Of a DNA stretch of 64,000 nucleotides, positions 1,169 to 53,108 are shown piece after piece. Position numbers and translations under genes: made by a program. Origin of the DNA: an uncultured Selenomonadales bacterium (GTDB taxonomy: Bacteria; Bacillota; Negativicutes; Acidaminococcales; Acidaminococcaceae); assembly GCA_900315345.1 (NCBI GenBank), contig OMYP01000011.1:1-64000 (forward strand), read 5' to 3'. The notes under the pieces were generated by a model. That model searched no databases. It was not told where the DNA came from and saw only the letters and a program-made list of their open reading frames with translations. The first letter of the stretch is position 1. Every line of letters begins with the position of its first letter.

Positions 1169-1209
1169 GGCAATCAAACTCCTGTCAGTACTCCGGAATG
1201 AAAAATAAC

Positions 1210-1240
1210 GGAAGCGCAGATTCAGTAAATTTGCGCTTCC
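1210..1240 (-). terminator. Intrinsic terminator after the lipoprotein flavodoxin
   Basis: A 9-bp stem, GGAAGCGCA (1210-1218) with TGCGCTTCC (1232-1240), followed on the minus strand by a T-rich tract (complement of AAAAATAA at 1201-1208). It lies 31 nt past the stop of the gene ending at 1272. Confidence 0.75.
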
Positions 1241-1271
1241 CTAAAAGAATTATTTCATCCGTTTTTCACTA

Positions 1272-1895
1272 TTATTTCAGCACGCCGTTTTCTTTCAGCC
1301 AGCCGTCAAGACCATCGGTGGAATTAGCAAGCAGTCCGTCTTTCACCTGGGCGCCTGCCATCGTTTTCCGCAAATCGGATACGCTGGATTCGATTCCGCT
1401 GCCGCCGCTTGTGGCAAAGGGAAGGATTACCTTGCCGGAAAAATCCTGACCTTCCACAAAAGTCTTTACGGCCATTGGTTCAATGTACCACCAGATGGGA
1501 TAACCCACCAGGATTACGTCATATTTTTTAACATCCGGCAGGGGACCGGCCAGTTTGGGACGGGCATTATCTGCTTTTTCCTTTTTCCCGATGTCAACAG
1601 TAGCATGATAATCCGTCGGATATGGAGTCTCAGGTTTTATTTCGAACAGATCCCCGCCTGTCTTGGTCTGGATTGTTTTAGCAAGATCACGTGTCCTGCC
1701 GCCCCAGGAAAAATACGCTACCAGAACTTTTTTCCCGCTGCCTGCAGGGGCCGGAGCTGCTTCCGCCTGTTTCACATTAGCAGCCGGCTTTGCATCCTTA
1801 CTGTCTGCCGACTTTTTTTCACCGCCGCAGCAGCCTGCCAGCGCAAAGAACATGCAGACAGCCAGCAGTGAAACCATAATTTTTTTCAACACCAT
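1272..1895 (-). CDS. Lipoprotein-anchored flavodoxin
   Basis: 207 residues. A signal peptide with lipobox (FALAGC) is followed by a low-complexity Lys/Ala linker and a flavodoxin-like domain from about residue 52. The FMN phosphate loop is seen as the strand VLVAYFSWGG plus the following T/R residues, and the aromatic loop as GYPIWWYIEP, both typical of the flavodoxin_4 family of putative electron carriers or quinone/azo reductases. An anchored, extracytoplasmic flavodoxin is less common than the cytosolic form. The start is supported by an AAAGGAG about 7 nt upstream. It stands alone between its own promoter and terminator. A perfect inverted repeat abuts the -35 box, which suggests control by a dedicated regulator not present in the window. 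Confidence 0.85.
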   Translation of the reverse strand: MVLKKIMVSLLAVCMFFALAGCCGGEKKSADSKDAKPAANVKQAEAAPAPAGSGKKVLVAYFSWGGRTRDLAKTIQTKTGGDLFEIKPETPYPTDYHATVDIGKKEKADNARPKLAGPLPDVKKYDVILVGYPIWWYIEPMAVKTFVEGQDFSGKVILPFATSGGSGIESSVSDLRKTMAGAQVKDGLLANSTDGLDGWLKENGVLK

Positions 1896-1928
1896 AAATC
1901 GCTCCTTTCGGTTTCCTTAATTAATAAC

Positions 1929-1977
1929 ATTGTAAAAGAAACCTTTTAAAATGTCTAATACTATGTTTTCATAGTAT
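1929..1977 (-). promoter_or_regulatory. Promoter with abutting inverted repeat (flavodoxin gene)
   Basis: Read on the minus strand: -35 TAGACA (1952-1957), a 17-bp spacer and -10 TACAAT (1929-1934). Immediately upstream of the -35 lies a perfect palindrome, ATACTATG-TTTT-CATAGTAT (1958-1977). That position is typical of an activator site (for example LysR or MerR type). The regulator's identity is unknown. Confidence 0.65.
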
Positions 1978-2077
1978 GCTATGCATTTCAGGCATGGTAT
2001 TAAAAATTATCGATATGCTTTACTGTTGTCGGAATAAAAGAAATGCGGATTAAATAAGTTGCCCCAAGGAACCGCTT

Positions 2078-2350
2078 TCAGTTTCTATATTGTTTCGCAA
2101 GTGAAAAGCCCCTTCCACGAACTTCGTTAACTTCTGAAATGGTGAAAAACGCTTCGGGATCCATCTCGGTAATCATTTCACAGACATAATACAGTTTTCT
2201 GCGGGGAATAACACATAGGATCCCCTTACCGGATGTTCCGGTAAATCCTTTTTCAATGGCAATCATGGTAGCGCCCGTATCCTCTTCAAGCAGCAGCTTC
2301 TCCCGGATCAGGTTATTTTTATCAGAAATAATGAGAAGCTGGATTTGCAT
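2078..2350 (-). CDS. Stand-alone DUF2179 (YitT C-terminal) domain protein
   Basis: 90 residues matching only the C-terminal, cytoplasmic DUF2179 domain of YitT-family membrane proteins: an opening strand ending LLIIS, a GATMI segment, the KGFTG turn, a VIPRRKL strand and the MDPEAFFTISEV segment before a conserved GRGF. Full YitT proteins have about 280 residues with five or six membrane helices before this domain. Nothing coding for helices is seen upstream, where the sequence turns AT-rich and contains the promoter of the next gene. It is either a genuine one-domain protein or a surviving fragment of a deleted yitT. The start has only a weak AGGG site. Confidence 0.65.
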   Translation of the reverse strand: MQIQLLIISDKNNLIREKLLLEEDTGATMIAIEKGFTGTSGKGILCVIPRRKLYYVCEMITEMDPEAFFTISEVNEVRGRGFSLAKQYRN

Positions 2351-2390
2351 TTTACCCTAAAAAAAACAAGCTTTTACTGAAATTTTCGTG

Positions 2391-2396
2391 TATAAT
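2391..2396 (+). promoter_or_regulatory. -10 element for the M20 amidohydrolase gene
   Basis: A perfect TATAAT lies 64 nt before the ATG at 2460 in an AT-rich stretch. No convincing -35 is seen at 16-18 bp spacing, so the exact promoter is uncertain. Confidence 0.45.
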
Positions 2397-2459
2397 AATT
2401 ATAGAATTTTCCAAAACAAAAAAAAAAGGCAATTCAAATTCTGAAAGGAGTATACTGCA

Positions 2460-3569
2460 ATGTCTAATGTACTGAATCACTATCAATACCTTCACAGTAT
2501 CCCGGAACCGGGCCTTCAGGAGTTTAAAACTTCGGACTATATTGCCGGAAAATTAACGGCAGCCGGGTTAAAAGTAACCCGGAACCTGGCCGGAACCACC
2601 GGTCTTGTCGCCGAATATGACAGCGGCGTCCCGGGGCCGGTGATGGGAATCCGGGCAGATATGGACGCCCTGACCCACATTATTGACGGCAAAAAAGAAT
2701 TCCGCCACACCTGCGGCCACGATGCCCATAGTTCCATGCTGCTGGCCGTAGCCGAAAAGATAATGGCAGAAAATATTGTAAAAAGGGGTCGTTTCAAGGC
2801 AGTATTTCAACCAGCAGAAGAACTGGGATCCGGCGCTCTGAAAATTGTAGAGAGTGGCATCCTGTCTGATGTAGATTACCTGATTGGCATGCATATCCGT
2901 CCCCTGCAGGAATGTCCTGCCGGTGGCGCCATCTGTGAGATGCGGTATTCCGCCGGCCAGCAGTTCCGGGTGCGCATCAGGGGAAAACAGTCCCATGGCG
3001 CAAGGCCTCATTTGGGCATCAACCCCATTGACGCCGGAACCTGTATCATTGCGGCAGTGAATGCTGTCCACATGGATCCCCGTATTCCCTTCAGCGTAAA
3101 ATGTACCCGGTTCCATGCGGATTCCGGCGTATTTAATTCGGTTCCCGAATTTGCAGACATTACCTTTGATATGCGGGCGCAAGACAACCCCACTATGAAA
3201 GAAATGCGGGAAAAGACACTCTGCGCCATTGAAAACGGGGCCAAAGCCGTAGGCGCCAAGCTGGAAGAAGTAGAATACCATAATAATTTCCCGGCGGCAG
3301 AAGGCTTTGATCCAGAGTTAGCGAAAATAGTTCGCACCTCTGTTGAAGAAGTTGTTGGCAAAGAGAACGCAATTCCTTTCTTTAATACATCCGGCGGAGA
3401 GGATTTCTTCTGCTACCCGGTAGAACTGCCTCATCTTAAGGTAGGATTCGTTGGGTTAGGAGTAGGCGCCGAACCTGGTCTGCACCATCAGGACATGCAT
3501 TTTGATACCAAGTATCTGGAAAACGGTGTCCGCATCCACGAAGCAATCATTAAAAAAATTCTGGGATGA
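2460..3569 (+). CDS. M20D-family amidohydrolase (N-acyl-amino-acid / aminobenzoyl-glutamate type)
   Basis: 369 residues, a cytosolic binuclear metal hydrolase of the HipO/AbgA (M20D) group that removes acyl groups from N-acyl amino acids or related amides. Visible family motifs are GIRADMDAL (first metal region), TCGHDAHSS (metal Cys/His), FQPAEE (catalytic and metal Glu pair), GMHIRP and a C-terminal GGEDF plus HHQDMHF. Length is normal for the family. The start is fixed by AAAGGAG 10 nt upstream. It is convergent with a second M20 peptidase (3755-4894) and shares a bidirectional terminator with it. Exact substrate cannot be read from the sequence. Confidence 0.88.
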   Translation: MSNVLNHYQYLHSIPEPGLQEFKTSDYIAGKLTAAGLKVTRNLAGTTGLVAEYDSGVPGPVMGIRADMDALTHIIDGKKEFRHTCGHDAHSSMLLAVAEKIMAENIVKRGRFKAVFQPAEELGSGALKIVESGILSDVDYLIGMHIRPLQECPAGGAICEMRYSAGQQFRVRIRGKQSHGARPHLGINPIDAGTCIIAAVNAVHMDPRIPFSVKCTRFHADSGVFNSVPEFADITFDMRAQDNPTMKEMREKTLCAIENGAKAVGAKLEEVEYHNNFPAAEGFDPELAKIVRTSVEEVVGKENAIPFFNTSGGEDFFCYPVELPHLKVGFVGLGVGAEPGLHHQDMHFDTKYLENGVRIHEAIIKKILG

Positions 3570-3691
3570 TAACCAAAAAAGCTATATTTCCAATGGCGAC
3601 AAGGATGTACAGAGAATTTAAACAGGCAATATGTTCCATGTATTGATGAGCAGTTCCTGACTAAAATTCTGGTGTAAAAATAAAAAACAAA

Positions 3692-3733
3692 GGACGGCGG
3701 TTTCCGTAATTAAGAAACGCCGTCCTCTTTTTT
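3692..3733 (+). terminator. Bidirectional terminator between two M20 genes
   Basis: A 12-bp GC-rich stem with one bulged G, left arm from 3692 (GGACGGCG) and right arm ending GCCGTCC at 3725, followed by CTTTTTT. The left flank is A-rich, so it can also end the converging minus-strand gene. Confidence 0.85.
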
Positions 3734-3754
3734 GTTAGAATATCGTAAACGATA

Positions 3755-4894
3755 TTACTTATACAGTTTTTCCTGAAGGTCAAGCAAAATTTTTTCCAGA
3801 CAGTGGAGGGATGGCTCTACAGAATTCAGTTCCAGATATTCCGCTTCGCTATGGCCGCCAGCACCGGTGGGACCGATGCCGTCTACCGTAGTGGCACCTG
3901 CTCCGGACATATGGTTGCCGTCGCTGCCGCCGCCGGCCTTTACCCATTCAGTTGACAGGCCGTAAGCGCGGCTGGCTGCGTCAATAATTTCAACCAATCC
4001 GGCTGTTTCTGGCGTGCTTGCCATAGGAGGCATACTGGAAATTGTTTTAATTTCCGTTTCTATTTCCGCAGCTTTGGCATGCTCCTGCAGTTTGGCAAAG
4101 GCTTCTTCCATAATGGAAATCTGAGCCTTATCCACTACCCGCAGGTCGATGTCCATAAAAGCATCCGCGGCTACGCTGTTGTAACCGCTGCCCCCATTTA
4201 CTACGCCGGTATTTACTGTCATACCTGTCTCAAAGTTAGTGAGTGCTGCCAGCTGCAGAACCCAGTAAGCCATTTCATTGATGGCGCTGCGTCCATCCTG
4301 AGGCGCGTTGCCGGCATGGGCCGCACGGCCTTTCAGCTTTACCTGGTAATGGCACACGCCTTTGCGTTCCAGTACTCTGGCGCCAGTGGCCCGGGCCGCT
4401 TCCAGTACAAGGCAATATTTACTGTGCGACCCCAGTTCCTGGAACCAGGACAGTACGTGTACGCTGCCGATTTCTTCTTCCGAATTAAACGCCAGGCAGA
4501 CTTTCAGTTCTTTCAGGCTTCCCGCTTCTTCCATCGCTTTTAATACATGGGTAGCCTGCAGGCAACAGCATTTCATATCGCTGACGCCGGGGCCGTAAGC
4601 CCGGTCGCCTTTTACCGAGAATGGACGAACCGCCACAGTGCCGTCCGGGAAAACCGTATCCATATGGCAGCAGAGGGTCACATCATAATCCGTATCATCC
4701 GTGTTAGTGATAACCAGCGGTTTAGCGCAGTCGGGGCCGCAATCGATACGTTTTACGCGCCACATGGGGCCGGTAAAATCTTTGGACAGATAATCTGCCA
4801 CTTTGTCAATGCCGGCAAAATTCTGGGCATTGCAGTCAATATTGACCAGATACTCCAGGTCTTTCATGTATTGTTCAATGTTATATGTTGTCAT
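3755..4894 (-). CDS. M20-family carboxypeptidase (glutamate carboxypeptidase-like)
   Basis: 379 residues, a zinc-dependent exopeptidase of the M20A / carboxypeptidase G2 group. Motifs in order: CHMDTV with the following PF (first metal His and Asp), the GPGVSDMK loop (bridging Asp), FNSEEEIGS (catalytic Glu and metal Glu), the RAAHAGN dimerisation-domain His, and GGGSDGN near the C-terminus with a final GGHSEAEY (last metal His). Such enzymes release C-terminal glutamate or hydrolyse small dipeptides. Immediately upstream on the same strand are yjiH-yjiG and, divergently, iadA, so a role in cleaving acidic or isopeptide-derived dipeptides is a reasonable inference. Confidence 0.87.
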   Translation of the reverse strand: MTTYNIEQYMKDLEYLVNIDCNAQNFAGIDKVADYLSKDFTGPMWRVKRIDCGPDCAKPLVITNTDDTDYDVTLCCHMDTVFPDGTVAVRPFSVKGDRAYGPGVSDMKCCCLQATHVLKAMEEAGSLKELKVCLAFNSEEEIGSVHVLSWFQELGSHSKYCLVLEAARATGARVLERKGVCHYQVKLKGRAAHAGNAPQDGRSAINEMAYWVLQLAALTNFETGMTVNTGVVNGGSGYNSVAADAFMDIDLRVVDKAQISIMEEAFAKLQEHAKAAEIETEIKTISSMPPMASTPETAGLVEIIDAASRAYGLSTEWVKAGGGSDGNHMSGAGATTVDGIGPTGAGGHSEAEYLELNSVEPSLHCLEKILLDLQEKLYK

Positions 4895-4927
4895 AGGAAC
4901 CTCGTAAAGTATCAGTTAAAGGAAAAG

Positions 4928-4959
4928 AAGTTGGGCAAAATTGCAAGTCTGCCCAACTT
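4928..4959 (-). terminator. Hairpin between yjiG and the M20 peptidase
   Basis: A perfect 10-bp stem, AAGTTGGGCA (4928-4937) with TGCCCAACTT (4950-4959), follows the yjiG stop on the minus strand. The trailing tract is T-rich but interrupted, so it may attenuate rather than fully stop transcription into the peptidase gene. Confidence 0.6.
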
Positions 4960-4976
4960 GTAAGTCAGCCAAAAAA

Positions 4977-5453
4977 TCAGAACATAACAATGAGGAGCTT
5001 CATCACCCACATGGCCAGCAATGCATTTAAAACGGCAATGCCTACCATGATTGCATAGTATTTGGAATTAACTTCCGCAGTACCCAGGCAGCGACCCAGA
5101 TACTGTACCATGGAACCCATCAGGTAAATGGCGGGCATCAGTACGGTGATATCCTTTGCATTTAACACATTGGAGCCTAACAGGCCGGCTGCGGCGCCAA
5201 TACCGCCGCCCATGGACATGAAAGAGGAAACCAGGACGGTTACCGCTTCGCCCGGCAGGCCCCACAGGGCCATAACCGGCGCAAAAACCTGGCCCATCAG
5301 TTTCAGCAGGCCGGTTACGTTTAACGCTTTGATAAGGATGAAGGCCATCAGGACGTTGGGCATCATGTTGCGGATACCGGTATCCCAACCTTTGCGGCAA
5401 CCTTCGATAAACAGGTCAATAATATTTTTCTTCTTTTGCTGCTCTGCCATCAT
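4977..5453 (-). CDS. yjiG: YjiG-family inner membrane protein
   Basis: 158 residues with about four hydrophobic segments and the SpoVM/nucleoside-recognition (Gate) type signature: an early MMPNVLMAF helix and a SFMSMGGGIGAAAG stretch. YjiG works with YjiH as a two-part membrane protein related to spore maturation proteins A/B; the transported compound is unknown. Its start overlaps the yjiH stop (ATGA), with AAGGAGG in front, so the two are translationally coupled. In E. coli yjiG-yjiH lie next to iadA, and the same gene association is kept here in a divergent arrangement, which supports a role in uptake or export linked to isoaspartyl dipeptide breakdown. Confidence 0.85.
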   Translation of the reverse strand: MMAEQQKKKNIIDLFIEGCRKGWDTGIRNMMPNVLMAFILIKALNVTGLLKLMGQVFAPVMALWGLPGEAVTVLVSSFMSMGGGIGAAAGLLGSNVLNAKDITVLMPAIYLMGSMVQYLGRCLGTAEVNSKYYAIMVGIAVLNALLAMWVMKLLIVMF

Positions 5454-6124
5454 GCCGCCTCCTTCGTTCCGTTCTTTTTGTGTTCATATTTCAGATAGAT
5501 ACGCATCAGGTTGGCGCCGAAGAATTTGAAAATCATGATCAGGCCAAAGGGTAAAATAATGGGGGTTACCAGCACGCTGAACAAAGCTGCGCCGGAAGAG
5601 AAAAAGTTGGTGATGGTGCCGTCACCGGAGAACTGGTACATGGCGAAGATGGTCTTTTCATCTTCATTAATGATGCCTTCGTTGTACATGGCTTTGATCA
5701 TGCCAGCGCCGGCGTCGGTGCTCTGGTAACTGGCAATCATGCCCAGGCCGCAGGCACCGGGGATACCCAGCAAAGGCCGCAGCAACGGTGATAACAGTTT
5801 CTGCGCTGCTTTCAAACCGCCTAAACCTTCAACCACATTGACAACGCCTAAAGCAAAGATAACAGCAGGCAACAGGGTCAACGCAAAGGCAAAGCCGTCC
5901 TGGGCGCCGTTACCGCCTGCACCGCGGAAGGTCAGGGCCTTACCGCTGGCCGCTGCAATTTTACCGAAGGTGCCATTTAATACAGTAAAATCACATACGC
6001 TGTACCATTCTTTACTGGTAGATAAAATACCGGAAAAGAAGATAATAGCGAACAGCAATGCAACATAGCTGTACCACTTGACTTCTTCTTCCTCTTGTTT
6101 CGGAACGGGTTTATTCTCGTTCAT
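5450..6124 (-). CDS. yjiH: YjiH-family membrane protein
   Basis: 224 residues. A short charged N-terminus is followed by membrane helices and a Gate-type domain (GMIASYQSTDAGAGM, then YQFSGDGTITNFF and a C-terminal helix). It pairs with the downstream yjiG with a 4-nt overlap. The ATG at 6124 has a good GAAGGAGG ribosome site. The 295-bp divergent region to iadA should hold the promoters of both. Function is inferred only from the conserved partnership with the isoaspartyl peptidase. Confidence 0.85.
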   Translation of the reverse strand: MNENKPVPKQEEEEVKWYSYVALLFAIIFFSGILSTSKEWYSVCDFTVLNGTFGKIAAASGKALTFRGAGGNGAQDGFAFALTLLPAVIFALGVVNVVEGLGGLKAAQKLLSPLLRPLLGIPGACGLGMIASYQSTDAGAGMIKAMYNEGIINEDEKTIFAMYQFSGDGTITNFFSSGAALFSVLVTPIILPFGLIMIFKFFGANLMRIYLKYEHKKNGTKEAA

Positions 6125-6419
6125 AATGGGATTCCTCCTTCTCTTTATTACCAGTTTTCTATATATACGCTATAACTAAGAAATATTTGAAAGCACTGCC
6201 ATCATTCTTTTGCGAGTCTGCACCGAAAACACGCAACAGATGTATGTCGGTTTTCAAGTTCCGAGGTTTTGAAAGGTTCAAACCATACGGTGGGATTTCT
6301 TTAGCGGAAACTGGTTGAGACATTATAACATTTAACGAAGGATTTACATAGTAATTTTTTATTAATTTTGTTAATTTGTATGATATAATGAAAAATATCA
6401 AAACAGAACGGAGGACCGC
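6125..6419. promoter_or_regulatory. Divergent control region between yjiH and iadA
   Basis: AT-rich near iadA, where an extended -10 (TG-A-TATAAT, 6381-6389) stands 31 nt before the iadA ATG. Toward yjiH there are imperfect dyads, for example GGTTTTGAA with TTCAAACC (about 6264-6283) and AACCA with TGGTT (about 6279-6315), which may be an operator or a folded leader. An 80-codon minus-strand reading frame crosses this region but has no ribosome site and is not called. Confidence 0.5.
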
Positions 6420-7583
6420 ATGATGATTAAATTATTAAAAAACGCGGAAGTGTACGCGCCCGCCTGCCTGGGGAAAAAAGATGTATTGGTAGCAGGCGAC
6501 AAAATCTGCCGTATCGATGACAACCTATCCGCTTACGAAGGACTGCCGGACGTAGAGGTTTTTGACCTTGCCGGAAAAAAGTTGCTGCCCGGTTACATTG
6601 ATATGCATGTGCATATTTGCGGTGGCGGCGGGGAACAGGGATTTTCTTCAAGAGTTCCAGCTTCAAAGCTTAGCATTTTTTTCCAAAATGGCATCACCAG
6701 CTGCGTAGGATTACTTGGGACGGACGGAGTTACCCGCAGCATAGAAGACCTGATTGCCAAAGCCCGGGCCCTTACTGAAGAAGGGATGACTGTTTATACA
6801 CTGACCAGTTGTTACCAGTATCCACCTAAAACCATGACAGGCAGCATCGAAAAGGATGTTGTGATGCTGACACCTATGATTGGCGTAAAGGTAGCTGTAT
6901 CTGACCACCGCAGTTCCAACCCGGACGGAAATGACCTGATCGCCATTGGCGTACAGGCCCGTCGGGCCGGCATGATCAGCGGAACGGCCGGTCTTGTGAC
7001 GATGCATATGGGCAGCGGCAAGGGACGTTTGAATCCTTTATTTGACGCGCTGGAAAAAAGCGATCTGCCTCTGAAACATTTCCTGCCAACCCACATGCTT
7101 CGCTGCCCGGAACTTATTGAAGACGGCGCCCGACTGGTGCGAATGGGCGGTTACATGGACTGCACGGCAGGCTCCGATGAAACAGAAGTAGTCAACAGCG
7201 CCAAACTGCTGTATAACCTGCTCCACATGGATGGAGTTACCACGGAAAACGTGACCATGTCCTCAGATGCTTTTGGAAGCCAACCCAAGTTTGACAGCAA
7301 AGGCGAATGCATTGGCTATACCTATGCATCACCTAAATACTTGCACAGAACAGTAAAATTACTGGTGGAAATGGGAATGCCCCTGGAAGAAGTGATAAAA
7401 CTGCTCACCTCCACTCCGGCAAAACTCATTGCAAAAGAAGGTATCAAAGGCTGCATAGCACCTGGGGCGGACGCAGATTTGTTAGTACTGGACAAAAATC
7501 TGGATATTAATGGGCTGTTTGCCAAAGGAAAAACCGCCATGAAGGATGGCGTCCTGTTCATGAAAGGACGTTTTGAAGAATAA
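6420..7583 (+). CDS. iadA: Isoaspartyl dipeptidase (beta-aspartyl-peptidase)
   Basis: 387 residues, a binuclear zinc amidohydrolase that hydrolyses beta-aspartyl (isoaspartyl) dipeptides formed during protein ageing. Visible motifs are the metal-binding DMHVH after the LLPGY strand, the GVKVAVSDHRSS segment whose Lys is the carbamylated bridging ligand in the family, LPTHM (metal His) and SSDAFGS (catalytic Asp). Length equals that of characterised IadA. It is preceded by GGAGG and an extended -10 promoter and is divergent from yjiH-yjiG, reproducing the known iadA/yjiGH association. A strong terminator follows at 7601. Confidence 0.93.
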   Translation: MMIKLLKNAEVYAPACLGKKDVLVAGDKICRIDDNLSAYEGLPDVEVFDLAGKKLLPGYIDMHVHICGGGGEQGFSSRVPASKLSIFFQNGITSCVGLLGTDGVTRSIEDLIAKARALTEEGMTVYTLTSCYQYPPKTMTGSIEKDVVMLTPMIGVKVAVSDHRSSNPDGNDLIAIGVQARRAGMISGTAGLVTMHMGSGKGRLNPLFDALEKSDLPLKHFLPTHMLRCPELIEDGARLVRMGGYMDCTAGSDETEVVNSAKLLYNLLHMDGVTTENVTMSSDAFGSQPKFDSKGECIGYTYASPKYLHRTVKLLVEMGMPLEEVIKLLTSTPAKLIAKEGIKGCIAPGADADLLVLDKNLDINGLFAKGKTAMKDGVLFMKGRFEE

Positions 7584-43626: not shown

Positions 43627-45390
43627 TTAAACCGTAATGGTTATAGTATTGAACCCGTGGTAACTGCGATACAGATACTGGCGGGCATGGCTTTTCACCA
43701 CATGAAGGCTCAGTGCCCTTACATCAATTTCCTCATCCCGTTCCGACCGGTCTGTCACTTTTTCCTGGGAAAGGTTAAAGGGATCGAATTTCTGGGCATT
43801 GTCCCGCAGGTGGATCTTGAAGGTCCCGTCTTCCTGGGCAATGAGGGTCAGCTGGGTCAGCACCGGTTCGTCGCCCTTCCGGCTGCCGGCCCGTTCGTTC
43901 ATTACGCCGCAGATTTCCTCCATGGCCAAACGGATGGTATTGCGGGCATGATCATCGGCTCCCCAGCTTGCCGCGAAGTTTTCCGCTTCATCCAACTGGG
44001 CAGCCACATCCTCAACCTTTCCTAAAAATGAAGCGTTGTAGACCCGGGCCGGGTCGATGGTATGCCGTTCACCTTTACTGCGTTTATAAAAATAAAGTAT
44101 GATCAACGTAACAATTTCTGCCAGGGGATACACCAGCCAGAAAAAGTAAAATCCATACTGGGACAGCAGGAAAGCCAGAGGCAGGCTGGCGCCCAGACGG
44201 CGCATAAATACTACCAGAAAGGCCCCCGTTTCATCTTCCTCCGACTGCAAATAATTCTGCAACAGCAGGGCCACTCCCATAAAGATGGTCCCGATACAGA
44301 AGATCCGGGCCGCATAATAGGCCATGCCCGCATCTGATACGTCTTCCAGGCCGAACAGCAAATCCAGTATTTGGGGATAGATTACCACCAGCACCGTTCC
44401 CAGAACGCCCCATACAAAGGAATACAGCAGAGCGTACTTGAATACCCGATGCAGCTCCCCGGTATTGCATTCAGCAAAGAATGTGGAAAACAGCGGTTGG
44501 GACGTTTTCCCTATAAATTCAAACAGGAAGATAAAGAGCACCGATAAGTTTTCAATAATGCTGAAGACTGCGACCCCTTCTGTCCCGGACATATCGGCCA
44601 GCATGTGGATAGCAATCAGGGAGAATACGGCGTCAAACACATACTCGAAAGAAGTGGCAAAGCCCAGGCGCAGAGGCTTGACAGCCTCGTTAAAGGCGCA
44701 GGTGCGGCGCTGGAAGCTCAGGTTCCCGTCTTTACGCAACATAATGTACCCAAGCGAGATCAGAACGGCAGCAGCATTTGAGAAGAAAAAGCCGAAACTG
44801 CAACCGGCAATACCCCAGTTAAAATGGAACAGCAGCAGGTAACTGATGATAAGGTTCACGACCCCGCTGGCAGTCTGTATGGAAGTGGACAGGGTATCCG
44901 CATCGTCGTTGCGCATGTACGCCGTAAGAACTTCCATTAAAATTTCGAAAGGAATACCCAGCAGGATGTAAAACAGGTAACTCTTTGCCATCTGGAAAAC
45001 CACACCGTCTTCCGGGGTGGTTCCCAGAAAATACAGGACCTGGTCTTCAAACAGGAGGCCTCCTGCGGTTATGACAAACCCGGCCACGGCAGCCAGTCGC
45101 AGGAAAAAGTTAAAAACGCCTAAAGCATCCTCCTTCTTCCCCTCGTGCATCAGGTTACTATACACGATGGCGCCTCCCATGGACAGGCCAAACACAAAAA
45201 AGGTGGCCAGAAGGAAGAGAGGCGAAATGAAACCGATGGCAGCCAGACCGTCCATGCCGATGCCATGACCAACCAGAATCGTGTCGCCGATTTCTGCCAA
45301 AGCTAGGCCTACTGCAGCGAAAGGAGCCGGAAGCACCGCCCTCATAAACATCTTACGGGTAAAATAGGCATGATCTATGGCCTTTTCCAA
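43627..45390 (-). CDS. MATE exporter fused to an RsbW-like HATPase domain
   Basis: 587 residues. Residues 1 to about 445 form a MATE transporter (N-terminal PAPFAAVGLALAEIGDT; repeat region MRNDDADTLSTS). Residues about 455-587 resemble the anti-sigma/HATPase_c_2 domain of RsbW and SpoIIAB: a helix RLAMEEICGV in the N-box position, a DNAQKFDPF G1-like loop and a final RALSLHVV where the G2 box should be. Key residues are altered: Val stands where the N-box Asn is expected, and the Gly residues of G1 and G2 are Ala or Ser, so ATP binding may be lost. It is the last gene of the cluster with an NRPS, a STAS fusion and a PP2C phosphatase. A likely role is regulated export of the peptide product. 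Confidence 0.82.
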   Translation of the reverse strand: MEKAIDHAYFTRKMFMRAVLPAPFAAVGLALAEIGDTILVGHGIGMDGLAAIGFISPLFLLATFFVFGLSMGGAIVYSNLMHEGKKEDALGVFNFFLRLAAVAGFVITAGGLLFEDQVLYFLGTTPEDGVVFQMAKSYLFYILLGIPFEILMEVLTAYMRNDDADTLSTSIQTASGVVNLIISYLLLFHFNWGIAGCSFGFFFSNAAAVLISLGYIMLRKDGNLSFQRRTCAFNEAVKPLRLGFATSFEYVFDAVFSLIAIHMLADMSGTEGVAVFSIIENLSVLFIFLFEFIGKTSQPLFSTFFAECNTGELHRVFKYALLYSFVWGVLGTVLVVIYPQILDLLFGLEDVSDAGMAYYAARIFCIGTIFMGVALLLQNYLQSEEDETGAFLVVFMRRLGASLPLAFLLSQYGFYFFWLVYPLAEIVTLIILYFYKRSKGERHTIDPARVYNASFLGKVEDVAAQLDEAENFAASWGADDHARNTIRLAMEEICGVMNERAGSRKGDEPVLTQLTLIAQEDGTFKIHLRDNAQKFDPFNLSQEKVTDRSERDEEIDVRALSLHVVKSHARQYLYRSYHGFNTITITV

Positions 45391-45527: not shown

Positions 45528-48500
45528 CTATTTATTCTCCGCCAGCTTTTTAACAATTTCTCCCACGGTTTTCCCGGCAGCCATGGAGTGGATGGCCAGG
45601 GCGTAGTCAGACAGGAAACGATTTATGAAATCTTCGCTGTATTCCAGCGTGTTATAGGTCAGGTTCACATAAAAATCATCCTTGCGGCGATGGAGGAAGA
45701 ATTCAAACACTTCTTCTTCAAAGTCTTCGATTTCTTCATAGCGGGCCTTGCCGCCACAGAAATCGAATTCACCGTCAATGTCTTCCCCCTGATAGGAGAA
45801 AGCCGCAATCAGAGGCACCGCATCCCCTTCATAAAGAGCATGGCGACGGCACAGCATAATATTTTCCTGAGTCTCTTTCACAAACCGGGCTGCAGTCATG
45901 TCATCCTGCCAGCGGACACACAGGGGGTAATGCCTGTAAATGGCCCCCATAGTGCGTTCATACCGAATATCGTCACGGCCATTGTAAATGGTGAGGACTG
46001 CCGCTGCCTTTTCCCCGTTTGCCAGACTCTGGAGCAGGCCGAAAGCCGCGGCCAGAATGGTTCCGTCCGTAACGCCCTGGGCCTTGGTAAAGGCATCCAC
46101 TGCCGCCAGATCAATATGCAGGGGCACCGTTTTATCAACGGTTTTATTTTCTTCTTTCGGATCCAGATCCCCGGGCAGTTCCCCGGCCCGTTCCGTAAAG
46201 GAACGGATAAAATCCTGATTCCACTGCTGTTCTTTCTGATACTCCGGCGTGCCTGTAACGTCCTCTATGTCGTCATAATAATCAAGGATACTATACTCTT
46301 CCGGCTTCAGTGTTTCACCTAAGTACGCTCCATTTACATCTTCCAGGAAGATATTAATGGAGTCCCCGTCGATAATGGGATGCAGGAAGTCAAAATAGAA
46401 CTCTTTGCTTTCGCTTCCATCCGTTTCTTTTATTACAAAAAGACGCATGCTGAACATACGGGTTTCCGGACGGTTCATGGATTGCCGCAGCTTCGGTTTC
46501 AGTCCTTCGTATTCCTCACGCGTCACTTTTTCCACTACAGGCTTCAGGTTCGCAAGATCCCCGCTCTTCCAGCGAAGAGTTCCGTCTTTTGCAGCAGTCA
46601 GTCTGGCGTCCACTGCAGGATGGGCCAGCAGCGTTTTTTCCACGGCACCTGCCAGTCGTTCCATGTCCGTTTCCGGCGCCAGGAATACGGTAGCGTCGCA
46701 GTGAAGCCCATAGCCTTCTTCCAGTTCGTTGCCCCATTCATAGTGGAGTTCCTGAAGAGGGCCAAAGAAATGAGTATCACGTTTTATCGTTTTTAATGCA
46801 GTCTTATCATCCCGAAGAGCAAGGAGCTTCGCAATCCCGGCGGGGGTCTTGCCTTCATAGACAAGGTTGAAGTTCAGCTTCAGATCCCGGCATTCCGCAA
46901 GGAGACGAACCACACTAAGGCTGTCACCGCCAGCTTCAAAGAAATCTTCTTCCGCGCTGACCCGTTCCATGCCCAGAGCCGCGGCAAATCCTTTTGCCAG
47001 CAGGGCTTCCGTATCATTTTTCGGCGCCACGTACGGGGTTTCACTGACATATACTTCCGGCTTTGGCAACGCTTTCCGGTTCAGTTTCCCGTTCTGGTTC
47101 CGGGGAATGGCGTCCAGCTGGACAATAGCCGCCGGTACCATATAAGGGGGTTTCCTTTCCCGGATAAAGGCTGCCAGAGCTTCCCGGTCAATGGGTTCGT
47201 CCGAAACCACATAGGCAGCGATAAATTTGCCTCCTGCCGGATTGTCGCAGGCAACCACTGCTGCGTTTTTCACGGCAGGGAAATCGTGGACGACCCCTTC
47301 CACTTCCGCCAGCTCAACACGGAAGCCACGGATCTTCACCAGACCGTCCCGCCGTCCCACAAATTCAATGTTTCCATCCAGGCGATAGCGGGCGATGTCC
47401 CCCGTCCGGTATGCCGTTTCGTAATCAGGCTTCTTTGAGAAGGGGTTCGGCACAAAAGCCTCGGCGGTCTTCTCCGGACGGTTCAGGTAGCCCCCAGCCA
47501 CCTGGATACCGGCGACCCACAGCTCGCCCAAAGCCCCGGGGGGAACCCGGCGGCCTGCATTATCCACAATATAGATATCCGTATTGTCCATAGGAATGCC
47601 AATGGGGATATCCGGTTCATACTCTGTCATACTGTAGCAGGTGATGGATACCGTTGCCTCCGTAGGTCCGTATTCATTGGCCACAATATAAGGATGAACC
47701 GGCTTGAAAGGCACCAGGGTCTCGCCCCCGACCACGATATATTTTAATTCAGGACAGTCCATGGACAGGGCAAACTGCCGCCCTACCTGGCTGGGCAGGT
47801 CCGCAATATAGACATGATGTTTCTTTATAATTTCTGCCAAAGCCGGCAGGTCCAGTTTCTTTTCTTCCGGAATCACAACTATGCCGGCTCCTACTGTCAG
47901 TGCCGGATACATATCCGCCAGAGAGCCGTCAAATCCATAGCTGTTGTAACAGGTTACACGGTGCTTCGCCGTAGGTGAAAAGTAACGGCGATACCAGGCC
48001 GCATAGGCCACGATATTTTTCTGCAGCAACCGCACCCCTTTAGGCACCCCGGTGGTACCGGAAGTATAAATCAGCATAAACAAATCGTCCTGAAGAGGCA
48101 CTGCAATTTTCTCCAAAGCAGCTTTCTCCGGCAATTCCAGAGACTGGATTTCTGATATGCGAAGCACCTTGCCGTCAAACTCCGGGAAATTCCCCAGCCG
48201 GGACAACAGTTCATCGGCGATAATAATCAACCTGGCGCCGGCATCTTTCACCATAAAGGATAACCGCTCATCAGGATAGTTGGGATCCAGCGGTTCGTAA
48301 GCGCAACCAGCCCGCATTACGCCCAGAGATGCGATTACCATATATTCAGAACGGGGAATGAAGACTGCTACGGTATCCCCCCGTCCCAGGCCCTGCCTTG
48401 CGATATAACCGGCCAGCCGGGAAGCCAGATCTTTCACCTGGGCATAGGTATAGGAGCGTTCTTCGTAAATCACCGCCGTATTATCCGGATACTCAGCAGC

Positions 48501-49166
48501 CCGTTCCCAGAACTGTTCTACAATGGTTTTGGACTGGTCGTATGCATGGACGTTATCGTTAAAGCTTTCCAGTGTCTCCATGGTCTCTGCCGCGGTAACC
48601 TGCACATCCCCCAAGGTTTTTGCCACCGGCAGGCTCCGCAGAATTTCACGCAGGGAAAGGGCCATCACCCGGATAAAAGGTTCTGTATATAACGAATCCA
48701 GATAGGAAATTTCAAGTTTCCCAGGTACCGCGCTGAAAGAAATCCCAAAGCCATCCTTCTGTTCAGCCGGGATCTCTACGCCGGCAGAAAAGGCAACGCC
48801 CCGGCCCGCTTCTGTTCCCAAAAGCTCCCAGGCCTCTTTGTCTTCCCACGTATAGGAAGCGCCGGTTTCCAACATGACGCATACCGCTTCTTTCAGCGCA
48901 GCCGGTTCCATATCCAGCTTCCATTCCTGACGCAACGGCTGCCATCCTGCTCCGTTCCATACAAGGAAACCCGCTTCCGTTAAGCCGCCGTATTCTCCCA
49001 GTAGCAGTAATACCCCTGCCGCCAGCTCTTCAGCTTTCGAACCGGTATCTGCAGGAATCGAAAACGTGGCCCACGCCCCTCCGGAAACCTCCCGTCTTTC
49101 CGGAACCGGAAGGCAGTCCGGCATTTCTGATCCAAAATAGGTTGTGCACCATTCTGTTTTATTCAT
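45528..49166 (-). CDS. Nonribosomal peptide synthetase (partial C - A - PCP - C)
   Basis: 1212 residues. Residues 1-200 look like the C-terminal half of a condensation domain. An adenylation domain spans about 215-700 (YTSGTTGVPKG, NEYGPTEATV, RTGDIARY, and the final NGKLNRKAL lysine). A carrier domain follows at 715-785 with the phosphopantetheine Ser749 in GGDSL. A full condensation domain spans about 800-1212, where LHPIIDG keeps the second (catalytic) His of HHxxxDG at 929. By hand alignment the substrate pocket reads D-G-A-D-V-G-E-V-S-K, nearest to codes for basic amino acids. No thioesterase is present. The ATG at 49166 follows AAAGG. The partner condensation domain is in the upstream STAS fusion gene. 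Confidence 0.88.
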   Translation of the reverse strand: MNKTEWCTTYFGSEMPDCLPVPERREVSGGAWATFSIPADTGSKAEELAAGVLLLLGEYGGLTEAGFLVWNGAGWQPLRQEWKLDMEPAALKEAVCVMLETGASYTWEDKEAWELLGTEAGRGVAFSAGVEIPAEQKDGFGISFSAVPGKLEISYLDSLYTEPFIRVMALSLREILRSLPVAKTLGDVQVTAAETMETLESFNDNVHAYDQSKTIVEQFWERAAEYPDNTAVIYEERSYTYAQVKDLASRLAGYIARQGLGRGDTVAVFIPRSEYMVIASLGVMRAGCAYEPLDPNYPDERLSFMVKDAGARLIIIADELLSRLGNFPEFDGKVLRISEIQSLELPEKAALEKIAVPLQDDLFMLIYTSGTTGVPKGVRLLQKNIVAYAAWYRRYFSPTAKHRVTCYNSYGFDGSLADMYPALTVGAGIVVIPEEKKLDLPALAEIIKKHHVYIADLPSQVGRQFALSMDCPELKYIVVGGETLVPFKPVHPYIVANEYGPTEATVSITCYSMTEYEPDIPIGIPMDNTDIYIVDNAGRRVPPGALGELWVAGIQVAGGYLNRPEKTAEAFVPNPFSKKPDYETAYRTGDIARYRLDGNIEFVGRRDGLVKIRGFRVELAEVEGVVHDFPAVKNAAVVACDNPAGGKFIAAYVVSDEPIDREALAAFIRERKPPYMVPAAIVQLDAIPRNQNGKLNRKALPKPEVYVSETPYVAPKNDTEALLAKGFAAALGMERVSAEEDFFEAGGDSLSVVRLLAECRDLKLNFNLVYEGKTPAGIAKLLALRDDKTALKTIKRDTHFFGPLQELHYEWGNELEEGYGLHCDATVFLAPETDMERLAGAVEKTLLAHPAVDARLTAAKDGTLRWKSGDLANLKPVVEKVTREEYEGLKPKLRQSMNRPETRMFSMRLFVIKETDGSESKEFYFDFLHPIIDGDSINIFLEDVNGAYLGETLKPEEYSILDYYDDIEDVTGTPEYQKEQQWNQDFIRSFTERAGELPGDLDPKEENKTVDKTVPLHIDLAAVDAFTKAQGVTDGTILAAAFGLLQSLANGEKAAAVLTIYNGRDDIRYERTMGAIYRHYPLCVRWQDDMTAARFVKETQENIMLCRRHALYEGDAVPLIAAFSYQGEDIDGEFDFCGGKARYEEIEDFEEEVFEFFLHRRKDDFYVNLTYNTLEYSEDFINRFLSDYALAIHSMAAGKTVGEIVKKLAENK

Positions 49167-49308
49167 AATTACAAAACCTTTCTTAATCCGAGATATAATA
49201 TCTTTTACAAAAATCGTTACGCAGCCGTCTGCAACAGCCACCGCTTTTGGATTGCCTCATTTCCTATCCCGGGGTAATCCTGCCATTGACTCATATTGCG
49301 GCAGCAAC

Positions 49309-50904
49309 TTATTGCAGCAGCGACGTCACTTCACAGCTTTCATCCATCAACGCCTTAACCATCGACTCCATAACAGCGGCAAAATTCTGCATGGCTTTTT
49401 CCGAATACCTGTGGTTATCGTAGTCCAGCACTAGGGAATAGGTACCGTCATCATGGGAGTTCATTTCTATATCCAGAGAATTTTCCGCCGCTGAAATTTC
49501 ATTGGCAGGCATCTCCACAATGAAGCAATCCTTACCATCTAACGACATTTCACCCCGCCGACCCATGGTCCCTTTCTGGAGAATAAAGCTGGCGCAGCCG
49601 TCCCCTAATGCTTCTTCGTAGATCAGGTCCAGGCTCTTGCGGTATTTCATTCCCTCTTTCACCTGAGCCTCCAGTTGCCGTAAAAAGTCACCGGCGGTGA
49701 TGGGCTCGGTGAAATCCCAGCGGGCCGGGAACTGATCCAGCATCAGGCCCATAAGGCGGCGCTCCGACGAATTGATGCGGCCGTTGTGGATCCAGCCCAG
49801 GATGGCTTCCTTCCGCCCTGTGGCCTTTGCCAGGGCCAGCAAAGAAGCCCCCAGGAAGAATGTGTTTTCATTGAAGTCCTTGCCCCGGAAGAACATCTTC
49901 TCAAATTCCGGAAAGGGAACCTCGATCTCATGCTCCGGCGTGAGGCTTTCCCCGTCCAGATCCGCCGGGGGAAGGTGTTTCTCCTCATCAAAATCCGACA
50001 GCATCTTCCGCCAGTAGGTATGCCCTTCCTCCAATTCATCGGGCGGAATCTGGGATTCTTCCCTTATATATGCCGCATAGCTGGAGGAATGGTATTTTGT
50101 CTTTGCCGCGTCCTGTTGCCCGGCATCATGGTACCGCTTCGCCAGTTCCCGCCAGAACAGCATAGCAATGGCCGTGCCGTCCATAATTGCATGGTAAAAG
50201 TCCACATACAGGTATTTTCCCGTAGCCGTCTGCATAATGTAGAGCCGGTACAGGGGGTGGTTAATCAGTTCATAGGGCTGCTTTACTTCCTGCTTCCGCT
50301 GTACAAAGGCTTCGTCTGACATAATTTCCACCCGGGCTTTTTCCAGTTCCCCGTCAAAGCGCTGGCAAATATCGCCGGTTTCCGGATGGATCACCAGGCG
50401 GCAACGGAAAACATCATGATTGGCCAGGACGCCGTTTGCCGCCCCGGCCAGACGCTCCAGATCAATGGAGGGATCCAGTTCTATCAAAGCGCCGGTGTTC
50501 ATCATCGTAGACCGGGCCATGAGGAAATGGGTATCCACCATCCACCGCTGCACCGGACGCAAAGGATAAAAGGCGGTTTCCTCTCCTTCGTTTTCCCGCT
50601 GCACGATGGTGAGCAGGCTGTCAAAATGGGTTGTGCGGAAAACGCTCATCACGTCCTCTGTAGGATAGAGAATTTTAAGCTCCGCGCCCTGCCGCATCAG
50701 GTTTTTCTTGGCCATAAACAAAGAACGAAGCCCGGCAGAAGAAATATATTCCACCTGCGAAAAATCCAGCAAGACCTGTTTCATGCCCTTTGCCTGTTCC
50801 GCAATTGCCTTATCCAGTTCCGCTGTCTCCAGAATACTGATTTTACCGTTCAGTTCCAGGGTAAGGGCCGTTCCCTCTGCCCTGGGGTTGATCTGTAATG
50901 CCAT
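49309..50904 (-). CDS. STAS domain fused to an NRPS condensation domain
   Basis: 531 residues. Residues 1 to about 105 are an anti-sigma-antagonist-type STAS domain (as in SpoIIAA and RsbV). The conserved phospho-acceptor region is VEYISSAGLRSL; Ser56 aligns with SpoIIAA Ser58. From about 113 to 531 it is a condensation domain beginning YPLRPVQRW, with YHAIMDG (catalytic His238, first His replaced by Tyr). This joins a signalling switch directly to a peptide-bond-forming domain. Start: ATG at 50904 with GAGGG; GTG at 50919 is possible. Flanked by the PP2C phosphatase gene (47 nt upstream) and the A-PCP-C synthetase. Confidence 0.87.
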   Translation of the reverse strand: MALQINPRAEGTALTLELNGKISILETAELDKAIAEQAKGMKQVLLDFSQVEYISSAGLRSLFMAKKNLMRQGAELKILYPTEDVMSVFRTTHFDSLLTIVQRENEGEETAFYPLRPVQRWMVDTHFLMARSTMMNTGALIELDPSIDLERLAGAANGVLANHDVFRCRLVIHPETGDICQRFDGELEKARVEIMSDEAFVQRKQEVKQPYELINHPLYRLYIMQTATGKYLYVDFYHAIMDGTAIAMLFWRELAKRYHDAGQQDAAKTKYHSSSYAAYIREESQIPPDELEEGHTYWRKMLSDFDEEKHLPPADLDGESLTPEHEIEVPFPEFEKMFFRGKDFNENTFFLGASLLALAKATGRKEAILGWIHNGRINSSERRLMGLMLDQFPARWDFTEPITAGDFLRQLEAQVKEGMKYRKSLDLIYEEALGDGCASFILQKGTMGRRGEMSLDGKDCFIVEMPANEISAAENSLDIEMNSHDDGTYSLVLDYDNHRYSEKAMQNFAAVMESMVKALMDESCEVTSLLQ

Positions 50905-50951
50905 TTGGCTTGCCCTCACTTTCAGTAATTTATAATTATTTATCCCAATAT

Positions 50952-53108
50952 TTATCCCAAATACCGCAATCCAACCATAGTTATATCATCGGACTGCTCC
51001 GCCGTTCCGGCGAAGGCGCCTACATCCTTCCGGACTGTTTCCAGGATTTCCCGCACCGCAACCGCGCCGCCGATCCGGTCCAGGCTCTCTTTAAGTCGTC
51101 CTTCGGAATACAGCTGGCCGGCCGGATCCATCGCCTCAGTTACGCCGTCCGTATACAGGAACAGCATATCCCCGGGAGCGAGTTTCAGCCGTTCTTCACG
51201 GTACGAAGTTTCCTCGTCAATGCCCAGGACCACCCCTCCGCTTTTCATCGGCAGGTACACAAAACGATCCGTTGCCTTATAAAACGCCAGAGGCGGATTA
51301 TGCCCGCAGTTCACAAAGTTCATTATGCCGGTCTTTAGATCCAGCACTCCCACAAAAGCAGTGACAAATAACATTTCTTCGTTATTTGAGCAAATCTGCC
51401 GGTTTGCTTTCTCCACCAAACCGGCTATGTTGGTTTTCCCATCTACATACATTAAGGCGCTTTTCAGAATCGTTTTGGAAATGGCCATAAAGAGGGCTGC
51501 CGGGACTCCTTTTCCGGAAACGTCGGCAATAGTAATTCCAAGCCGGCGTTCATCCAGCATATAGAAGTCATAAAAATCACCGCCCACTTCTTTTGCCGGA
51601 TCCATGGACGCAAACAGTTCAAAACGGGAGTTCCCCACAAAATCCGGTTCCAGATGTGGAAGCATCCCCTTTTGGATGTTGGTGGCCACAGAAAGCTCTG
51701 TGGCAATTCGTTCTTTTTCCGCCGTGACTTTTGAAAGATTCGAAATATAGGTTTTCAGGTCCGCGCTCATGTTATTCACACTGTCCGCCAGCTCTTCTAT
51801 TTCGTCCCCTGTTTTCACGTCCAGCGTTTTGTCCAGATCCCCCTGGGCAATCTGCTTCACGCCGTCCTGCAGTTCTAATATGGGTTTGACGAATCGTCTG
51901 GCTGCCCATGTACTGAAAGCAACCCCTCCTGCCAGCAGCAGCGCCATTACAGCAGCCATAGCGGTTCCGTATGAAGCAAGACTCCCCCTCATCTCTCCCC
52001 TGAAATTTTCCGTCCATTCGCGAATGCCCTTGGCTGCTTCCTTTGCAGGCGCCAGCGTGGCCTCTTTTTCTACCAGTGTACCAAAGCTCCAGCCCGTCTG
52101 TTTTATCGGTGCATAGGCCAGATAATATTCTGTTCCGTCAACAGAGACCACCTCAACTCCTGTCTTCCCGTCCACCATTGCCGATACAATCCGGGTAAAA
52201 GAGTTCTGTCCCGACTTACGAAGATCCCGGCCGTCCGGTGTAAAGGACAGGACGCCGTCCTTTTTGGAAGACGCAATAATCTCCCCGTTCCTGCCAATCA
52301 CAATAGATTGCTCACTGGCGCCTGTAACAGCTGTCGCCATGATTTCATCGTAAATTGCCCGGGCATCCATATCCATACCGATGACCCCTGCAAAACCCGC
52401 TGCGTCATAATACGGCGCAACGCAGGAAATACAGGGATTCCCTGTTTCGGTATCTATATACGTATCCGTAAATACAGGACCGGAAGCTTCTTTCCCCAGC
52501 TTATACCAAACCCTATCCCTTACATCATAAGAAGAACGATACGGCTCCTCTGTGAGAAAAGGTTTATTCTGGCTTTTCTTAACCCTGATGGTATATCCGT
52601 TTCGGGAACCCAAGAACACGATCGGATAATATTCGTTCATTTGTATAAAGGAGTCGGCGATTTTTGATTCAATATCAATTTCTTTCTGCAAAGCCGGGGA
52701 CACCCCCTGCCGTACAAGGGCCGGACTGTAATGAATATAAGGTTTGCCCGGAGGAACATCAGTGTACAACGCATTGGGAAGCGAATCTGCGCCGGATCCG
52801 ATTCCTTTCTTCAACAAATTATTCATATTATCTGCAAGATATTTGGTATCTTCCGCAGCTTCCACCATTTCGCGATTCATATCCTGCGCCCGGACCCGGG
52901 TAATTTCTTCCATATGTTTTTGGATTTGTTTTTCTACCAGTTCCTCTGCATATTCAGAAGCACTGGAACTCAGGGCATCTGCCTCTGAATTCAGAGTCTT
53001 ACTGGCATTGTACAGTCCAACTGTAAAGAACAGTGCCAGCAGCAGAAAGGTCAGCAGAATTCCGGAAAGAACCAGCAGTAAAACCTTTTTTCTTATGTCG
53101 AGCTTCAA
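50952..53108 (-). CDS. Membrane sensor PP2C (SpoIIE-type) phosphatase with Cache and HAMP domains
   Basis: 718 residues. Transmembrane helix at about 8-33; extracytoplasmic double-Cache sensor (about 35-375, with RDRVWYK and TYIDTETGNPCIS); second helix about 388-410; HAMP (about 408-462); then the SpoIIE/RsbU serine phosphatase domain to the end. Metal-binding motifs EVGGDFYDFY, ADVSGKGVPAALFM, NCGHNPP, LYTDGVTEA and SDDITM are intact. It should dephosphorylate a STAS-domain partner in response to a small extracellular ligand. First gene of the NRPS cluster; the STAS fusion is the next gene. Confidence 0.92.
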   Translation of the reverse strand: MKLDIRKKVLLLVLSGILLTFLLLALFFTVGLYNASKTLNSEADALSSSASEYAEELVEKQIQKHMEEITRVRAQDMNREMVEAAEDTKYLADNMNNLLKKGIGSGADSLPNALYTDVPPGKPYIHYSPALVRQGVSPALQKEIDIESKIADSFIQMNEYYPIVFLGSRNGYTIRVKKSQNKPFLTEEPYRSSYDVRDRVWYKLGKEASGPVFTDTYIDTETGNPCISCVAPYYDAAGFAGVIGMDMDARAIYDEIMATAVTGASEQSIVIGRNGEIIASSKKDGVLSFTPDGRDLRKSGQNSFTRIVSAMVDGKTGVEVVSVDGTEYYLAYAPIKQTGWSFGTLVEKEATLAPAKEAAKGIREWTENFRGEMRGSLASYGTAMAAVMALLLAGGVAFSTWAARRFVKPILELQDGVKQIAQGDLDKTLDVKTGDEIEELADSVNNMSADLKTYISNLSKVTAEKERIATELSVATNIQKGMLPHLEPDFVGNSRFELFASMDPAKEVGGDFYDFYMLDERRLGITIADVSGKGVPAALFMAISKTILKSALMYVDGKTNIAGLVEKANRQICSNNEEMLFVTAFVGVLDLKTGIMNFVNCGHNPPLAFYKATDRFVYLPMKSGGVVLGIDEETSYREERLKLAPGDMLFLYTDGVTEAMDPAGQLYSEGRLKESLDRIGGAVAVREILETVRKDVGAFAGTAEQSDDITMVGLRYLG

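Follow-up and report, generated by a model that had tools for sequence, protein, structure and literature searches.

The window, the whole stretch of 64,000 nucleotides that was analysed, carries four genes of the same strand which encode, in this order, a sensor PP2C phosphatase, a STAS domain fused to an NRPS condensation domain (STAS-C), an NRPS module with the domains A-T-C, and a MATE exporter with a HATPase_c_2 tail (Table 1). The term operon is used here for this four-gene set as judged from gene order and strand. The locus is best read as a partner switch on a split synthetase, in which a predicted phosphorylation would govern the docking of the synthetase to the exporter of its putative product. 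This suggests that the synthesis and export of a molecule may be controlled directly on the enzyme. The first-pass annotation was confined to the fusion gene and covered only a part of the four-gene system.

In the proposed mechanism, which is held with somewhat less than even confidence, the partner switch would act on the enzyme itself and its output would be the unphosphorylated STAS-C docked on the exporter tail. The switch protein is here fused to a biosynthetic enzyme, and a sigma factor would not be its target. Phosphorylation of the STAS domain on Ser56 would be the task of a GHKL-type kinase, for which the canonical HATPase encoded on contig C31 of the same genome is the most likely candidate, and the membrane phosphatase encoded just upstream would reverse it. 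This phosphatase would sense an extracellular ligand, which in the window species is probably an amino acid. In the presumed direction of the switch, it is the unphosphorylated STAS domain that would bind the HATPase-like tail of the MATE exporter from the same operon and thereby recruit the condensation domain together with the A-T-C synthetase to this transporter. The signal would in this way switch the coupled synthesis and export of a small, presumably amino-acid-derived product. A phosphorylation-gated synthesis-export complex, in which the exporter tail serves as a pseudokinase dock, the condensation enzyme carries the switch and the amino-acid-sensing phosphatase decides on the assembly, with control through enzyme and location and not through transcription, appears possible, if rather doubtful.

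Table 1. Features of the four-gene set in the window, by position.
Feature	Position	Strand	Remarks and basis
MATE-family exporter with C-terminal HATPase_c_2 tail	43627..45390	-	587 aa
HATPase_c_2 tail of the exporter	43627..44052	-	residues 447-587; N-box Asn replaced (MEEICGVMNE), G2 box degenerate
NRPS module A-T-C	45528..49241	-	1237 aa as listed; Pfam
STAS-C fusion protein	49309..50904	-	531 aa; start ATG at 50904; Pfam, homologues, fold model
Condensation domain	49312..50583	-	residues 108-531 of STAS-C; motif FYHAIMDG (H238, D242, G243)
STAS domain	50593..50904	-	residues 1-104 of STAS-C; Pfam, model, PDB alignment
Ser56 codon	50737..50739	-	predicted phospho-acceptor; Ser in 39 of 39 STAS-bearing homologues
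Membrane sensor phosphatase dCache_1 - HAMP - SpoIIE/PP2C	50952..53108	-	718 aa; Pfam

The STAS-condensation fusion and its spread

The fusion of a STAS domain to a condensation domain, proposed in the first-pass annotation, was confirmed by a Pfam profile search, in which both domains scored above their gathering scores (Condensation E 1.1e-39, STAS E 6e-13), and by its recurrence in homologues. A GTG at 50919, upstream of the assigned ATG, is a possible start of a longer form. The same STAS/C junction was found in eight other proteins with 48-87% identity to STAS-C and, since the fusion recurs in many genomes, a chance ORF or a misassembly could be ruled out. In the AlphaFold2 model of STAS-C (mean pLDDT 86.3, pTM 0.72), the order of strands and helices is STAS-like at residues 1-101, so that a STAS-like fold is predicted. 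The matches listed from the structure comparison of this model are condensation-domain entries and bear on the condensation domain, not on the STAS fold; the condensation domain matches solved structures of its kind (Z about 29-33 among the 50 entries listed, where rows within 1 are tied).

Ser56 aligns with the Ser of the RsbV DSTG motif in the PDB alignment (6m36_B), as had been claimed beforehand; this Ser we take to be Ser56 of RsbV, corresponding to Ser58 of SpoIIAA. A loss of the Ser in most homologues, named beforehand as the observation that would speak against a switch, was not found: Ser56 is one of only 7 invariant columns in the 104-residue STAS domain of the 39 distinct STAS-C proteins, and the residue preceding it is variable (Ser in 27, Ala in 12). 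In the model, it is the first residue of the helix 56-71, which is the expected place for a phospho-acceptor. Judged by alignment and model, Ser56 looks like a functional phospho-acceptor. STAS-C thereby corresponds to the antagonist of an RsbU/V/W-type partner switch, a STAS domain with Ser or Thr at the phospho-acceptor position.

By whole-genome search, the condensation-domain family was detected in 86 of 380 genomes of the class at E <= 1e-30, and 38 matches in 35 of these genomes, counted by eye from the listing, start inside the STAS part. Across the phylum, 5 of 398 genomes match, all of the same class, and in the genus of the window the family is present in 6 of 13 other genomes. When named genomes were scanned, 74 loci were revealed, almost all of which are labelled Negativicutes (e.g., Succiniclasticum, Selenomonas, Schwartzia, and Quinella), many of them from ruminants. 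The exceptions are one locus labelled Lachnospiraceae and one labelled Fretibacterium, and these MAG labels may be wrong. The latter MAG, labelled Fretibacterium (Synergistota), has almost the whole operon, in which only the A-T-C gene is shortened, reflecting either horizontal transfer or a binning error. According to the record titles, STAS-C is also present in the cultured rumen species Succiniclasticum ruminis DSM 9236, Selenomonas ruminantium ATCC 12561, and Schwartzia succinivorans DSM 10502, and the system is therefore amenable to testing. In most of the Selenomonadaceae genomes examined, ORFs of approximately 600-700 residues with a weak and often split condensation-family match were seen (e.g., G242:C13:295031-296245).

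The alignment of 85 homologous proteins, from which ORFs with less than 38% identity to the condensation domain and identical duplicates were left out, includes 46 relatives without a STAS domain, two of which are cut at the N-terminal side by a contig end. The switch is thus not essential to this enzyme family. The condensation-domain tree was built from rows of at least 380 residues that are not marked as partial. Its 40 STAS-less proteins show strong clustering, and its outgroup branch is too long for the root to be placed or for STAS gain and loss to be put in order. The tree label "divergent MATE" for locus L044 arises only from its contig end.

Gene neighbourhood, sensor phosphatase and kinase candidates

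The MATE gene follows the STAS-C gene, directly or behind the A-T-C gene, in 37 of the 39 loci, and the other two run off their contigs. In the divergent group of homologues, the STAS-C and MATE genes mostly overlap by 4 bp. A PP2C gene lies within 400 bp upstream of STAS-C in 19/39 loci including the window, where the distance is 47 bp. The A-T-C gene is found within 8 kb downstream in 19/39 loci, again including the window and with most of the close homologues among them. STAS-less condensation proteins adjoin MATE genes in 17 of 46 cases; condensation enzyme and exporter can therefore be linked without the switch.

Some further arrangements were observed. Divergent STAS-C/MATE pairs and STAS-less C/MATE pairs adjoin genes for DUF6056 membrane proteins with no NRPS (L048, 4166-7143; L057, 926-2353 and 7982-10370), and in L057 a family 2 glycosyltransferase (GT2) gene also adjoins a C/MATE pair in place of an NRPS. 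At 2197-6247 of L057, three consecutive condensation-type genes are followed by a MATE gene, with neither STAS nor an NRPS module. Directly upstream of a STAS-C operon, L055 encodes another NRPS-like protein of 1302 aa, accompanied by separate STAS and PP2C genes (537-7274).

The phosphatase of the proposed partner switch was identified by its SpoIIE match (E 5.3e-45); patterns for the PP2C catalytic motifs were scored across 28 phosphatases from these loci as one group. In its dCache_1 sensor domain, the residues Y194, R199, W201, Y202, Y217, and D246 occur at the exact spacing of the PctA amino-acid motif, which is given as Y, R, W, Y, Y, and D at positions 121, 126, 128, 129, 144, and 173 in the accessible part of PMC10104139. 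This PctA numbering was used for the motif check of the PP2C sensors; the excerpt available from PMC11237719 places three residues between the first aromatic residue and the Arg, which is one off the PctA numbering of PMC10104139. The window phosphatase thus has the residues of a dCache_1 amino-acid sensor, and all six are present in only 3 of the 28 PP2C proteins. Its nearest relative, L030 (= locus L021, 3088-5292), shares 75% in the phosphatase domain and 47% overall. A sensor part that differs strongly while the catalytic domain is kept suggests a sensor swap. The sensor thus varies and the output stays; the amino-acid signal is a lead for the window species only, in which the sensed ligand is probably an amino acid.

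In the exporter's HATPase_c_2 tail, the Mg-binding Asn of the N-box is replaced in the window protein; none of the 21 close homologues has it, and 12 of the 15 divergent ones lack it as well (kept in 3/15). The catalytic-base Glu is kept in 20/21 and the G1 Asp in 19/21 close homologues, and standalone HATPases keep all box residues checked (5/5). A GHKL kinase with intact N, G1, and G2 boxes was not found in the operon. Due to the loss of the N-box Asn, the operon does not hold a complete pair of kinase and antagonist in the classical sense, the tail is unlikely to be an ordinary Ser56 kinase, and the likely kinase is a separate canonical HATPase encoded elsewhere in the genome. We read the tail as a putative STAS-binding module whose kinase function would be lost or weak. 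Against the PDB, phmmer revealed no meaningful match of the tail. With Pfam, HATPase_c_2 was detected in 17/18 MATE proteins beside close STAS-C, in 5/15 beside divergent STAS-C, and in 1/16 beside STAS-less condensation proteins, where the sets leave out 3/21 close proteins (L039, L132, and L135) and 1/17 (L082, masked run). The tail decays where the STAS domain is absent, as expected if both are partners, and this trend is confounded by phylogeny, so that kinship could be the other explanation.

The genome of the window contains 2 STAS, 2 HATPase_c_2, and 3 SpoIIE-family proteins. The canonical HATPase (HATPase2; C31:28091-28420) retains the Asn and the glycines and weakly matches RsbW (6m36_A); with it, a kinase of the type required for a partner switch is present in the genome. 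It is adjoined on contig C31 by the second STAS protein (STAS2), and this pair is unlinked to the operon in the window genome. In four sister genomes (L032, L033, L036, and L037), the exporter gene is followed directly by those for STAS2, HATPase2, and a second PP2C, whereas the STAS2/HATPase2 pair of L044 is located between PP2C and STAS-C. The earlier proposal that a switch controls the NRPS gains from this context, namely the phosphatase gene directly upstream, the HATPase tail of the exporter, and the canonical HATPase and second STAS elsewhere; it has to be revised in so far as the HATPase of the same operon looks degenerate and the kinase is probably another protein.

A STAS domain that is a tether only, docking the condensation enzyme constitutively to the exporter tail and conserving Ser56 for binding, is an unlikely explanation. 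The resemblance of the tail to a non-catalytic binding module, the almost constant vicinity of STAS-C and MATE genes, and the missing linkage of the canonical kinase in the window genome agree with it, but a passive tether would need neither the adjacent SpoIIE-family phosphatase in about half of the loci nor the canonical kinase and second STAS linked in five loci, which would be superfluous.

Condensation domain and A-T-C synthetase

In the motif FYHAIMDG of the condensation domain, a Tyr replaces the first His of HHxxxDG, and the second His and the DG are retained. The catalytic His that had been noted in YHAIMDG is therefore present. His, Asp, and Gly are found in 85 of the 85 aligned homologues, a count that is not independent, because DFYHAIM was one of the two patterns of the collection scan. 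With the Condensation fold and the active-site His of HHxxxDG, this part of STAS-C has the hallmarks of an NRPS condensation domain, and peptide-bond formation is its putative activity.

The A-T-C protein comprises an adenylation domain, a carrier domain (FFEAGGDSL), and a second condensation domain (LHPIIDG). Pfam detected no thioesterase in the protein. Its relatives suggest that translation starts not at the listed GTG but at an ATG about 25 codons further on. The adenylation code, read by eye as D-G-A-D-V-G-E-V-S-K at what we take to be the GrsA positions, hints at a basic residue as the putative substrate.

The genome of the window (98% complete) contains exactly 2 Condensation domains, both in the four-gene set, and its 2 PP-binding domains over the cut-off belong to the A-T-C protein (T domain) and to an ACP-like ORF of 79 aa. 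As no other condensation or NRPS carrier domains are present, it is very probable that in this genome the condensation domain of STAS-C works for the A-T-C module. This pairing does not hold family-wide: an NRPS adenylation domain over the TIGR01733 cut-off is absent in 9 of 27 examined genomes with a relative of the condensation-domain family, and three of these 9 genomes carry STAS-C (G110, G245, and G259).

Such genomes also agree with a quite unlikely reading, according to which the condensation domain is an acyltransferase whose substrate is linked to a lipid or to the surface, the MATE/MOP transporter is its partner in this, and the link to A-T-C is secondary. It would further account for the Tyr in place of the first His and for the DUF6056, GT2, and MATE genes, instead of NRPS genes, next to the examined divergent STAS-C and STAS-less loci. 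However, the only NRPS carrier and the only other condensation domain of the window genome are located in the same operon, and A-T-C follows STAS-C in nearly half of the loci, including most close homologues.

Among the homologues, the mean pairwise identity is 58% for the condensation domain, compared with 43% for the STAS domain. As the condensation domain is better conserved than the STAS domain and keeps its catalytic motif, it could be ruled out as a decayed passenger. No SigB/F/G-type sigma factor over the TIGR02980 cut-off was detected in the window genome (best 140.9 vs 234.35 bits), so that the output of the classical sigma-B/F subtype was not found. A classical expression switch, in which STAS-C titrates an anti-sigma factor and the condensation domain is a passenger or a sensor of the biosynthetic state, is for these two reasons improbable, although STAS, HATPase, and PP2C are parts of sigma-B/F switches and the regulation of NRPS expression was proposed for similar genes of Methanobrevibacter ruminantium in the part of Leahy et al. 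(PMC2812497) that is at hand.

Comparison with known systems

If true, the preferred reading of a partner switch on a split synthetase would provide a signal-gated, direct handle on small-molecule production via a switch built into the condensation enzyme and a partner domain built into the exporter, and would show in nature how a synthetase can be docked to its transporter. For NRPS enzymes, the control that is usually described is transcriptional. The switches RsbU-RsbV-RsbW and SpoIIE-SpoIIAA-SpoIIAB of Bacillus have a sigma factor as output and a kinase with intact N, G1, and G2 boxes. Their three domain families are those of the window system, and the Ser likewise begins the helix, but, unlike STAS-C and the MATE-HATPase protein of the window, they are not known to be fused to biosynthesis or transport.

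Known STAS fusions are the SulP/SLC26 transporters and the STAS-glycosyltransferase all4160 of Anabaena, according to the consulted sections of PMC8256260. As in STAS-C, the STAS domain is covalently attached to a transporter or an enzyme, but not to a condensation domain, and those sections describe no PP2C/HATPase circuit linked with a synthetase for these fusions. In the open-licence part of PubMed Central, no paper on a STAS-condensation fusion was found, nor, in the text portions accessible, one on a MATE-HATPase fusion. The main text of a rumen gene-cluster survey (PMC8241843), as far as available, does not mention STAS or anti-sigma. The parts of the switch are known; for the covalent fusion of two of them to biosynthetic and export proteins, no report was found among the open-licence papers.

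By its description, the nearest published locus is mru0066-0071 of Methanobrevibacter ruminantium M1, which has a further NRPS locus, mru0512-0516 (Leahy et al., 2010; PMC2812497, in excerpt). There, one NRPS gene has as neighbours a MatE exporter gene and genes for serine phosphatases and for an anti-sigma factor antagonist (STAS), and another cluster encodes an anti-sigma kinase besides an acyltransferase, an antagonist, and a phosphatase. Like the window, these loci belong to a rumen organism and combine an NRPS with switch genes, in one case together with an exporter. In contrast to the window, and again compared by description, the genes are separate, the NRPS has two modules, and the signalling was read as acting on expression; neither a STAS-C nor a MATE-HATPase fusion is reported for them in the excerpted text of PMC2812497.

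A partner switch with an enzyme as output is known from SiaABCD of Pseudomonas aeruginosa, which comprises, in the available portions of PMC7647112 (see also PMC8457831), the PP2C SiaA, the kinase SiaB, and the antagonist SiaC, which is phosphorylated on Thr. In NCBIfam, the window phosphatase matches SiaA best, although the score is far below the cut-off. An enzyme would be the output of the window circuit too, but SiaC is a free protein that acts on a diguanylate cyclase by binding it, whereas STAS-C contains antagonist and enzyme in one polypeptide.
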